Assembly (NCBI GenBank): GCA_021604505.1
Contig: BQJC01000002.1
Coordinates: 620,001-684,000, forward strand
Direction: 5' to 3'
Source: Nitrospinaceae bacterium
Lineage (GTDB): Bacteria; Nitrospinota; Nitrospinia; Nitrospinales; VA-1
Length of the DNA: 64,000 bases
A program made the position numbers and the translations under genes. The notes under the pieces were generated by a model. The model made no database searches. It saw nothing but the letters and a program-made list of their open reading frames with translations, and was not told the DNA's origin. Shown in pieces: positions 5,692 to 9,363 of the stretch (position 1 is its first letter; each line of letters begins with the position of its first letter).

Positions 5692-6984
5692 TCAGTCTTT
5701 TAACTGCTCCAAAACAATTTCCGCCATTCGCCGGGATGCGCCTTTATTGGCTTGAATCCAGGATTTAGCCTTATCAACCAGGCCGCCGCGTTTCGAGGAA
5801 TCTTCTAAAAAGGACGTAAGTACGGTTTCCATTTCTTCTGCGTTATTTACCGGAAAAGCCAGACCCTGTTGCCTGAGTTCGTCCGCCACCTGCCGGAAAT
5901 TTTCAATATGAGGTCCGTGGAGTACGGGTTTGCCCTGAGCCACCGGTTCCATGAGACTGTGGCCGCCTCCGGGAGGGATCAGGCTTTTGCCGACGAAGGT
6001 AATCTCACCGATGGAATACAGTTTCGAGAGCTCACCCATCGTATTGAGCAGGATCACCTGGTTCTTACCAGCAGAGCTTTCGCCGATGGCCGTGCGTCTG
6101 GCAAAGGGCATTTTTCGCGTTTCCAAAAGCGTTTCCACATCATGCACGCGCTCCAACCTTCTAGGAGCCAGAACCAAAACCAAATCGGAAAACTTTTTTC
6201 TCAAATTCTGAAACGTTTCAAGAATGATTTCTTCTTCCCCGGAATGCGTACTGCCCGCCACCCAGACAGGGCTTGTTGCGGGAATCCCCAGACCGGATCG
6301 AATTTCGCGACGATCCCCTTCCGGGACGGTTTCCAAGGCGTCGAATTTGGGGTCGCCGATGACCTTCAGCCGGTCCGCCTCCACCCCCAACTTTTTAAGG
6401 GATTCTTTCCCTCCTTCGCTTTGCATGCACAAAAGGCGGAACCCATCGAATAAATTTTTGGAAAGAAACCCCAACATTTGGTAGCGCGTAAAAGACCGCT
6501 GGGAGATACGTCCGTTGAAAAGTAACGCAGGAATCTCGCGCCCGGCCAAAAGATCGAGAAGACCCGGCCAGAAACCGGTGTCCGTCACGACGAATACATC
6601 GGGACGAATGCGGTTCAGCGCCGTCAAAGTGAAGGGCAGGCAATCGAGCGGATGGAAAAAAATTTGCTCGGCAAAGGAGATTTTCTGCCGGGCGCCGTCG
6701 TACCCAGTATCGGTGGTGACCGAGACCACGAGCCTGAGGTCCGGTCGCTTCTGGTGAATGATTTTTAACACCGGTGCGGCGGCGGTGACCTCGCCCAGAG
6801 ACAGAGCGTAAATCCACAGCGTTTTTTTTTCGGCTGATTCCGGTAATGCAGGAACAAAGCCAAAGTGATGCCACAATCCCCGGCGTTTGCTGTTTGTCAG
6901 AATGGAATAAACGGCAAAACAGGGAACCGCTATGAATGCGGTCAGCGTTGAGAGAATATGATAAACCCACATCATCGGAATCAA
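5692..6984 (-). CDS. GT30-family glycosyltransferase, divergent Kdo-transferase paralogue
   Basis: Inner-membrane-anchored glycosyltransferase of the WaaA/KdtA family. 430 residues: N-terminal hydrophobic anchor (about 5-30), the GT30 N-domain with the catalytic-base motif in the form SLGE (Glu65), and a GT-B C-domain with AGSTHSGEE, DTMGEL and PPGGGHSLMEP. Compared with the neighbouring paralogue and typical WaaA, the conserved E-x-E-x-W-P motif is D-T-G-F-W-P (residues 135-140), so the second acidic residue is lost. The start overlaps the stop of the upstream paralogue by four bases. It may add a different sugar, a second Kdo, or be a modified acceptor variant; the activity is unproven. Confidence 0.8.
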   Translation of the reverse strand: MIPMMWVYHILSTLTAFIAVPCFAVYSILTNSKRRGLWHHFGFVPALPESAEKKTLWIYALSLGEVTAAAPVLKIIHQKRPDLRLVVSVTTDTGYDGARQKISFAEQIFFHPLDCLPFTLTALNRIRPDVFVVTDTGFWPGLLDLLAGREIPALLFNGRISQRSFTRYQMLGFLSKNLFDGFRLLCMQSEGGKESLKKLGVEADRLKVIGDPKFDALETVPEGDRREIRSGLGIPATSPVWVAGSTHSGEEEIILETFQNLRKKFSDLVLVLAPRRLERVHDVETLLETRKMPFARRTAIGESSAGKNQVILLNTMGELSKLYSIGEITFVGKSLIPPGGGHSLMEPVAQGKPVLHGPHIENFRQVADELRQQGLAFPVNNAEEMETVLTSFLEDSSKRGGLVDKAKSWIQANKGASRRMAEIVLEQLKD

Positions 6985-8243
6985 CGATCCGTCTGCGTTT
7001 GTTGTATAAGCTCCACGGTTCGTTGCACAGCGCCCTGGTTGGCCAGAACGGTTTCCGCCGCCGATCGGCCACGCCGGCTCCGCTCTTCCGGGTTTGCTAG
7101 AAGACGATGCAGGGTGGAATGCAACGCAGTGGAATTTTCGATTTGAATGCCGCCGCCGGATTCTTGCAAAAGCCTGGCTTCTTCCTCGAAGTTATTCATG
7201 TGTTTTCCGAAGACCACCGGAATCCCGAACGCGGCAGGTTCTAAAATATTTTGTCCGCCAAACCTGGGATTGAACCCTCCACCGACAAAAGCTAAGCAAG
7301 CCCGAGAATAGTAATCATTGAGTTCTCCCATGGTGTCCACAAGAATGAGAAACGCGTCATCGCGTTCGGAGTTTGATGAAAGTTTCGAGTGCCATTTAAG
7401 CTCCAGTCCAAATTCCTGGATCAGGCCTTCGATTTCCTGACAGCGCTCCAGATGCCTGGGTGCGACCACATATTTTAGATCGGGAAAGTCTTCTTTCAAG
7501 CGCAGGATGGTTTCCATGACAGGGCCTTCGTCTCCGGGCCGGGTTGAACCGAATACGATCAGCGAGCTTTTCTCAGCGAAGGCATTTTTATCGTTTTGCA
7601 ATGAATTGCCTGTCAGGGCGTCAAATTTAATGTTGCCCGCCACACGCACTTTCTCCGGATTGACGCCCAGAGCCAAAACGCGGTCCGCATCGCTTTGGGT
7701 TCGCATCGAAAAAACCGCAACCGCATCCGCAAGCCAGCGAAAGAGCGGCAGAATTTTTTGGTAACGGTCCGCTGATTTTTGCGACATCCTGCCATTGACC
7801 AAAAGAACCGTCACGTGGCGGCGTTTACAACCCCTGAGAAGAGAGGGCCAAAGTTCCGCTTCAATAAGAACCAATTGCGAAGGGTCCAGTTTGGTGAAAA
7901 GCGGATTGAGCCACAGGGGGAAATCCGGCGGCAGACGGAAAACGTTTTCGATGTTTTCTTTTTTCGCCAGGTCGTAGCCCGTTCGCGTGAAGGTCGAAAG
8001 AACGATGGGTTTCACGTTTCCATTTTGAAGAAGAGCGTCCAGAAGAATTTTGGCGGCCCGAACCTCTCCTGCCGATGACGCGTGAATCCACAAACATCCA
8101 GACAACTGAGGGAGGGATCTCCCGCCTTTGAGACGCTCCAGAAGATCCGAGCGAAATGGGGCAGAGAGCGCCATTCGCATTAAAATAAAAGGGGATGCGG
8201 CTAGGATGGCAACGGCGACAATGGTATGATAAAAAATTTCCAT
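6981..8243 (-). CDS. waaA: 3-deoxy-D-manno-octulosonic acid (Kdo) transferase
   Basis: Transfers Kdo from CMP-Kdo to lipid IV-A at the cytoplasmic face of the inner membrane, the first inner-core step of LPS. 420 residues with an N-terminal anchor, catalytic-base motif ASSAGE (Glu60), the EAELWP motif (residues 128-133) and a C-domain with FGSTRPGDE, DTMGEL and GGQNILEPAAFG. It keeps all the usual motifs, so it is the better candidate for the housekeeping enzyme of the pair. Divergent from lpxK, 43 bases away, which supports a shared lipid A/core role. Confidence 0.9.
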   Translation of the reverse strand: MEIFYHTIVAVAILAASPFILMRMALSAPFRSDLLERLKGGRSLPQLSGCLWIHASSAGEVRAAKILLDALLQNGNVKPIVLSTFTRTGYDLAKKENIENVFRLPPDFPLWLNPLFTKLDPSQLVLIEAELWPSLLRGCKRRHVTVLLVNGRMSQKSADRYQKILPLFRWLADAVAVFSMRTQSDADRVLALGVNPEKVRVAGNIKFDALTGNSLQNDKNAFAEKSSLIVFGSTRPGDEGPVMETILRLKEDFPDLKYVVAPRHLERCQEIEGLIQEFGLELKWHSKLSSNSERDDAFLILVDTMGELNDYYSRACLAFVGGGFNPRFGGQNILEPAAFGIPVVFGKHMNNFEEEARLLQESGGGIQIENSTALHSTLHRLLANPEERSRRGRSAAETVLANQGAVQRTVELIQQTQTDR

Positions 8244-8286: not shown

Positions 8287-9363
8287 ATGAGATGGGAACC
8301 TCTCTACTACCGAATCATTTCTCCCGAACGAAAGTTTTATCACGTGCCGGTTTTTCTTTTGTTAAAGGTGACGTCGATATTTTATTTTTTGGGCCTTCGT
8401 CTGAACCGCCTGGCTTATCGTTGCGGATTTTTTCCCACCCGGCGGCTGAAGGCCCGGGTGATCAGTGTCGGAAACTTGACTCTGGGCGGAACCGGGAAAA
8501 CTCCCGTCGTCATCATGGTCGCCGAAACCTTGCGCGGTCATGGATACAGGCCCGCAATTCTCAGCCGCGGATATGGCGGAAGTTCAAAAGATAAGATCAA
8601 TGTCGTTTGCGATGGTCAACAGGTTTTACTCTCAGCGAGGGCTGCAGGAGACGAACCGGTCATGATCGCTGAACGGCTAAAAAACATTCCGGTGCTCACA
8701 GGACAGAATCGCTACTTGACCGGAAATCATGCCATCGACCGATTCGGCGCGGACACCCTGATCCTCGATGACGGGTTTCAGCACCTGGCCCTTTCGCGCG
8801 ACCTCAACATTCTGCTTTTTGACCAGAAGAAACCGCTGGGTAATGGAAATCTGTTTCCCGCAGGCGAATTGAGAGAATCGGTGACAGAATCCCGACGCGC
8901 CGGTCTGGTCTGCATCACGAGGTCTTCGGGAAATAATCCGTCTCCTTCTTTGCAGGCGTCACTTCCCGGTCACATCCCGGTGGTCAAAACTGCGCTCAGA
9001 TTAGATTCAATCGTCCGCCTCGATAATAGTGAAACTTTGGACGTGGAAAGTTTAAAGGGCCAGCCAGTTGCGGCCTTTTGTGGAATTGCCAAACCGGGCG
9101 ACTTTAAAGCCACTCTGGTTGCGGCGGGTGCGCGTGTGGTTTTTTACCGGGCGTTTGGCGACCATCATCGTTACGATGCGGAGGATTTAAAATCGATCGA
9201 TCAGGCCGCGAGAAAAACGCATGCAAAATACATTCTGGTGTCGGAAAAAGACGGCGTCAAAATTGATCCTTCAATGTTCTCGCTTCCGGTGATGAAAGTG
9301 GTCGTCGATGTTGTGATTCTTGAAGGCCGGGATGTTTTTACCCGGCTTCTTTTGAAAAATTGA
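8287..9363 (+). CDS. lpxK: Tetraacyldisaccharide 4'-kinase
   Basis: Lipid A pathway kinase that phosphorylates the 4' position of the tetraacyldisaccharide 1-phosphate. 358 residues. A P-loop GGTGKT lies at residues 67-72 after SVGNLTLGG, and the family motif LDDGFQHLALSRD is present. The N-terminus is hydrophobic, consistent with peripheral membrane association. Divergent neighbour of the waaA pair; the next gene starts at or just after its stop codon, implying cotranscription. Confidence 0.95.
   Translation: MRWEPLYYRIISPERKFYHVPVFLLLKVTSIFYFLGLRLNRLAYRCGFFPTRRLKARVISVGNLTLGGTGKTPVVIMVAETLRGHGYRPAILSRGYGGSSKDKINVVCDGQQVLLSARAAGDEPVMIAERLKNIPVLTGQNRYLTGNHAIDRFGADTLILDDGFQHLALSRDLNILLFDQKKPLGNGNLFPAGELRESVTESRRAGLVCITRSSGNNPSPSLQASLPGHIPVVKTALRLDSIVRLDNSETLDVESLKGQPVAAFCGIAKPGDFKATLVAAGARVVFYRAFGDHHRYDAEDLKSIDQAARKTHAKYILVSEKDGVKIDPSMFSLPVMKVVVDVVILEGRDVFTRLLLKN

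Follow-up and report, generated by a model that had tools for sequence, protein, structure and literature searches.

Tandem GT30 glycosyltransferase genes in Nitrospinota and a possible division of Kdo transfer between them

Two GT30 genes next to lpxK

The window, a stretch of 64,000 nucleotides from a Nitrospinaceae genome (contig BQJC01000002.1), contains two GT30 genes in tandem on the minus strand, as the sequence-only reading had reported. We call their products A and B (Table 1). The adjoining lpxK gene is divergent from the A gene. LpxK, the 4'-kinase, produces the acceptor on which Kdo transferases act. Both proteins widely exceed the curated cut-off of PF04413 (23.9 bits) and belong to this Pfam family, of which they are the sole matches in the 3.64 Mb genome (E <= 0.001). 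They are 31% identical to each other.

Table 1. Genes and active-site residues of the GT30 pair (positions in the window; residues in brackets in Aquifex numbering)
Feature	Position	Strand	Evidence
GT30 protein A (P0002, 420 aa, ATG start)	6981..8243	-	PF04413, 168.4 bits
GT30 protein B (P0001, 430 aa from TTG)	5692..6984	-	PF04413, 155.5 bits
lpxK, divergent from A, adjoining	8287..9363	+	PF02606, 298.3 bits
A motif E128-A-E130-L-W-P	7845..7862	-	aligned with Aquifex WaaA E98-R-E100-F-W-P
B motif D135-T-G137-F-W-P	6565..6582	-	aligned with Aquifex E98-x-E100-x-W-P
A R263-H264 (R212-H213)	7452..7457	-	alignment to 2xci
B R275-R276 (R212-H213, CMP phosphate site)	6157..6162	-	R213 in 58/58 readable B copies
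B E65, catalytic base (E31)	6790..6792	-	invariant in 25-row alignment A1
B K213 (K162)	6346..6348	-	invariant in A1

The four-base overlap described earlier for the two genes depends on the start of B. It holds with the TTG at 6984. With the ATG at 6975 or 6972, 5 or 8 bases lie between the genes; these are two ATG codons in succession, and the conserved part of B starts there in the alignment. The TTG start would overlap the stop of A, and the genes may be translationally coupled.

Both proteins match the solved WaaA structures 2xci and 4bfc (2xci with E values of 6.5e-33 for A and 6.6e-33 for B). Confident AF2 models of A (pLDDT 91.0) and B (pLDDT 93.7) have 2xci as their top Foldseek match (E 6.5e-25 and 2.8e-24, respectively), and the predicted structure of both is a WaaA-like GT-B fold. 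With the NCBIfam PRK05749 models for WaaA, the best scores were 287.3 for A and 308.3 for B, both below the curated cut-off of 438. As a sign of a WaaA equivalog we used E98-x-E100 together with PRH, a criterion of our own that comes from the aligned copies and not from a published definition. A has these residues, and B has D98, G100 and R213 in their place. On its sequence, B is classed as GT30 rather than WaaA.

Residues are given in Aquifex numbering, obtained by subtracting 21 from the 2xci chain number, with E31 as anchor. The motifs E-A-E-L-W-P of A and D-T-G-F-W-P of B stand at the aligned site, as first read. The catalytic-base Glu was also correctly seen as retained. It is E60 in A and E65 in B, within G59-E60 and G64-E65, the equivalents of the Gly30-Glu31 pair by which GT30 membership was judged. 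A carries the canonical E98, E100 and H213, and B the variant D98, G100, R213 and S273. The change at 213 is a second one, beyond the earlier reading: the donor-site PRH (H264 in A) is PRR in B (R276). The equivalents of G30, E31, K162, R212 and E276 are all kept in B, and E100 and H213 are lost. S62, G64, E65, K213, R275 and E346 of B are invariant among the 25 B sequences of A1. Nitrospinota B copies also differ from other GT30 groups at residues 211, 333 and 343 (numbering of B), in a residue scan that is circular, its groups being defined by residues 100 and 213. The catalytic-base role of Glu31 and the roles of the other retained residues are taken from a review (PMC6286764), whose accessible part does not mention E100 and H213.

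The pair resembles WaaA/KdtA of E. coli and Aquifex aeolicus (GT30; PDB 2xci, 2xcu) in predicted fold, PF04413, catalytic Glu, K162, R212 and E276. A also retains E-x-E and PRH. However, E. coli K-12 has one gene, as annotated, and here there are two diverged genes, with B unlike WaaA at positions 98, 100, 213 and 273.

Conservation and phylogeny in Nitrospinota

PF04413 matches were present in 72 of the 77 genomes of the phylum (two in 63, one in 8 and three in 1) and absent in 5. In one of the 63 two-match genomes (G076), the second match is below the cut-off. The eight single-match genomes have copies with E100 and H213 (E/H); none of the eight has the double change at 100 and 213.

The copy counts of A and B come from 80 stretches fetched from Nitrospinota. 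The 60 B copies, which were chosen for G at position 100, have the form [DE]-T-G-[FY]-W-P, with D at residue 98 in 49 and E in 11. PRR (R213) replaces PRH in all 58 readable ones. E100 and H213 are found in all 63 A-type copies, that is, those with R at position 241. An early-branching B-like copy (L033) reads ETDLWP. In every one of the 55 tandem loci (one A-like and one B-like gene), A lies upstream of B on one strand, and lpxK is divergent beside A in 53. The remaining two are L033 and a locus with less than 600 bases upstream. A and B are apart in two genomes (G004 and G009), where A is the copy near lpxK.

We estimated dN/dS by simple counting in six pairs for each gene. The values were 0.127-0.204 for B and 0.104-0.182 for A, in pairs that are partly saturated (dS 0.95-2.18). 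Both genes are under purifying selection of similar strength.

A careful tree was made from 78 hand-picked rows, after removal of the motif columns and of columns 213 and 273. B, together with L164 and L166, forms a clade with support of 100/99 that is present in 100% of 200 bootstrap trees. A forms another clade with the E/H partner of G078 (99/92). B groups with the lipid-A-operon lineage, which includes E. coli WaaA (48 rows, 96/94), and A falls outside. It means that the motif-changed gene is nearer to ordinary WaaA and that the ordinary-looking A is more distant. The position of A is between the operon lineage and the stand-alone Desulfobacterota copies. A single clade of A and these stand-alone copies had a support of 69.5 in the best quick tree and was not retained.

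The sequence-only reading had called the motif of B degenerate. It proposed a GT30 phylogeny as a check, to see whether the D-x-G form is a conserved clade or a scattered copy. The first outcome was obtained: the G100/R213 form is a single conserved clade with dN/dS like that of A, so the word does not fit. The conservation in 60 copies, the dN/dS values and the clade support rule out a decaying copy.

In the careful tree, the D100 copies need three changes besides the single clade of B, and a common origin of all changed copies was not recovered. The AU test did not reject such an origin (p 0.721; 46 rows vs 76); nine rows were left free, and the constrained tree surpassed the quick tree by 23.1 log units. 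The trees suggest more than one origin of the change.

The sole GT30 of one Nitrospinota MAG (G061; L103, 1068-2369, minus strand) groups with alphaproteobacterial sequences. This may be contamination or transfer.

GT30 pairs in Desulfobacterota and residues 100 and 213

A scan of genome contigs with B alone gave no match. With alignment A1 instead, 76 loci were found, five of them partial and unreadable at the motif. Beyond the loci of the order itself, the G100 form occurs in L164 (titled Deltaproteobacteria) and in L166 (titled Nitrospinota).

In Desulfobacterota, the phylum of the genome with the Desulforhabdus locus (G079), we counted PF04413 matches per genome, completeness being unstated. 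Among 98 genomes, 64 have one match, 29 have two or three, and 5 have none. The earlier remark that one gene usually suffices holds for the 64; nevertheless, with 29 such genomes, pairs are not rare.

The two-copy set contains 32 genomes, the 29 with several matches plus G078, G081 and G082. An E/H copy accompanies a doubly changed copy (D or G at 100, non-H at 213) in 29 of the 32. Without the five genomes reached through similarity to B (G077, G078, G079, G081 and G082), the count is 24 of 27. In one exception (G121), a D/K copy is paired with D/H, so the partner is not E/H. In the other two (G089 and G125), the second copy is of another type. Most changed copies in this phylum have D100, and their residue at 213 is D, R, N, E or Q. 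In G168, the changed operon copy (L327) is split into two reading frames and the E/H partner is intact.

For single copies, 60 of the 69 Desulfobacterota genomes were examined. They consist of 48 E/H copies, 10 with E100 and non-H at 213, and 2 with D100 and H213. The double change as the only GT30 was found in none of these 60 genomes. Either single change occurs alone in single-copy genomes; the double change was never found alone. Canonical E/H copies can suffice alone. Of the 38 single copies that have H241 and H334, 36 lie near lipid A genes. By their residues, 18 single E/H copies belong to the stand-alone type, and LpxK is present in 15 of the 16 such genomes tested. These two types are loose labels, set by residues 241 and 334.

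In 22 of the 29 pairs, the changed copy and not its partner has a nearby same-strand neighbour from among msbA, lpxK, lpxB and lpxA, eight partner copies being viewed within 4 kb only. In the other seven, neither copy has a lipid A neighbour on its strand. One of these seven is G180, whose E/H copy lies divergently from lpxK. The two genes of the 29 pairs lie on separate contigs or distant on one contig. The E/H partner is between kdsB and kdsD, or adjoins them, in G123, G157 and G183. The Nitrospinota pair is like those of Desulfobacterota in having one E/H and one doubly changed copy. However, in Desulfobacterota the changed copy is usually with msbA/lpxK and its partner elsewhere, and in Nitrospinota the G100/R213 copy is in tandem.

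We ranked 417 alignment columns between 21 operon and 21 stand-alone copies, grouped by gene neighbourhood only. This ranking replaces the circular residue scan. Column 213 came joint first and column 100 third. Among 86 operon-lineage proteins, the double change is present in 36 of the 37 from two-copy genomes and in 0 of the 49 from single-copy genomes. The first figure is partly by construction, since 14 of the 37 rows were picked by motif (6 Desulfobacterota copies without operon neighbours and 8 from Nitrospinota). In the two-copy rows picked by neighbourhood, it is present in 22 of 23. The tree needs about four changes, and an independent-pairs test on the supported branches had two pairs and p 0.5; with all branches there are five pairs. 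With phylogenetic correction, the independent events are too few for the partnership rule to reach significance. The doubly changed GT30, found almost only beside a normal-looking partner, suggests that the two share a job usually done by one enzyme.

Desulfobacterota also have other GT30-like genes. A highly divergent type, with R-Y-E-Y-W-Y and H at the place of R212 (L252, 260-1588, minus strand; L269, 8417-9739, plus strand), adjoins kdsB in two genomes, each also with an E/H copy. It probably has another function. In G157, a third, strongly diverged gene (L325) lies near rfaD-like and kdsB-like genes.

A proposed pair of enzymes for Kdo transfer

Nitrospinota include marine nitrite oxidisers. 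The sequence evidence suggests that in this phylum two GT30 enzymes build the inner core, a pair that ordinary family models fail to separate. Our leading explanation, which we put somewhat short of an even chance, is that A and B are both active Kdo transferases acting in order. A would add the first Kdo to the lipid A precursor. B, with an altered pocket, would transfer one more Kdo to the product of A, Kdo-lipid A. With the first transfer made by the partner, changes at both 100 and 213 would be tolerated. We infer the order from the doubly changed form not being found alone, given that a later transfer presupposes an earlier one. The Aquifex WaaA, which is E/H and monofunctional, fits A as the first-Kdo enzyme. 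Nevertheless, E/H is also found in E. coli WaaA, a bifunctional enzyme, and these two residues alone thus do not tell the first transfer from the second. Against this order, it is B and not A that belongs to the operon lineage, and of the two copies in Desulfobacterota, the one in the operon is usually the changed one.

To our knowledge, there is no sequence rule for the number of Kdo transferred by WaaA. According to the accessible part of the review, WaaA proteins transfer one to four Kdo, depending on the species (PMC6286764). A second enzyme that extends the inner-core Kdo chain after WaaA is described for Acinetobacter baumannii, in the part of the KdoT study available (PMC12856342). The role proposed for B is like that of KdoT; however, KdoT is ELM1-like and of no characterised GT family, and B is GT30. 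The accessible part of a study on Kdo2-lipid A evolution (PMC3087551) discusses duplicated lpxA/lpxD, lpxH and lpxL genes and no waaA duplication. Our literature searches, with most subscription papers outside their scope, brought up no description of GT30 enzymes in pairs or of the motif of B.

The sequence-only reading had offered for B a different acceptor, a different sugar or a regulatory role. The acceptor proposal gains indirect support. Exactly one KdsB exceeds the curated cut-off in each of the seven Nitrospinota genomes tested, among them the window's and G030. The latter is 97% complete and has both GT30 genes, with no other CTP_transf_3 match over the cut-off. From these counts, A and B would both use CMP-Kdo. 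Transfer by B of another sugar (a Kdo derivative or other CMP-ulosonate), or action on another lipid, we consider quite unlikely. The changes at E100, two residues from E98, and at H213, beside the CMP-phosphate Arg (PMC6286764, accessible part), could fit it, and so could the distinct residues 211, 333 and 343 of B. A second CTP_transf_3 protein (E 9.1e-28) is encoded in the window's genome, and further ones occur in other genomes. However, G030 keeps the pair with its one KdsB, which makes a different sugar less likely, and R212 and E276 are retained in B. A Kdo kinase would cap a single Kdo, and no PF06293 match was found in the window's genus and family (G000 and 19 relatives); weak matches occur in 7 of 41 genomes searched. 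A search for extra late acyltransferases gave only one PF03279 match in G000.

The reverse order, in which B adds the first Kdo and A the second, is unlikely in our view. It would agree with the grouping of B with operon WaaA proteins, E. coli's included, and with the changed copy beside lpx/msbA genes in 22 of the 29 Desulfobacterota pairs. Yet the doubly changed form is the sole GT30 in none of the 60 single-copy Desulfobacterota genomes examined, even though LPS with one Kdo exists, and E/H copies of both lineages do occur alone. The regulatory role is not favoured. A catalytically silent B that regulates or scaffolds A might explain the loss of E100 and H213, the tandem order and the near-obligate co-occurrence with another GT30; we judge it improbable, given the invariant G30, E31, K162, R212 and E276 equivalents in 25 B sequences, purifying selection like that on A and the far-apart genes of the 29 Desulfobacterota pairs. 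Redundancy, in which A and B would have identical activity and be retained for dosage or for particular conditions, has an equally small chance. Canonical copies can indeed occur alone. However, A and B have low identity and consistent residue differences, and they belong to separate lineages, both of which also include members of a further family of the class (L092, L093).

A wider form of the proposed A-then-B order seems rather doubtful to us. It would be a split-WaaA system of possibly more than one origin. The ability of a GT30 to start on lipid A would depend on E100 and H213, and the double change would be allowed only in genomes with another GT30 that has this ability. If true, residues 100 and 213 would be a sequence code for first versus later Kdo, readable from genomes. 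The natural series of paired enzymes, one of them without E100 and H213, gives ready comparisons for acceptor-choosing residues.

Several lipid A operons have a GFO/IDH/MocA-type oxidoreductase gene between lpxI and lpxB, as in L164 (2765-3793, plus strand) and L300 (1887-2939, plus strand).
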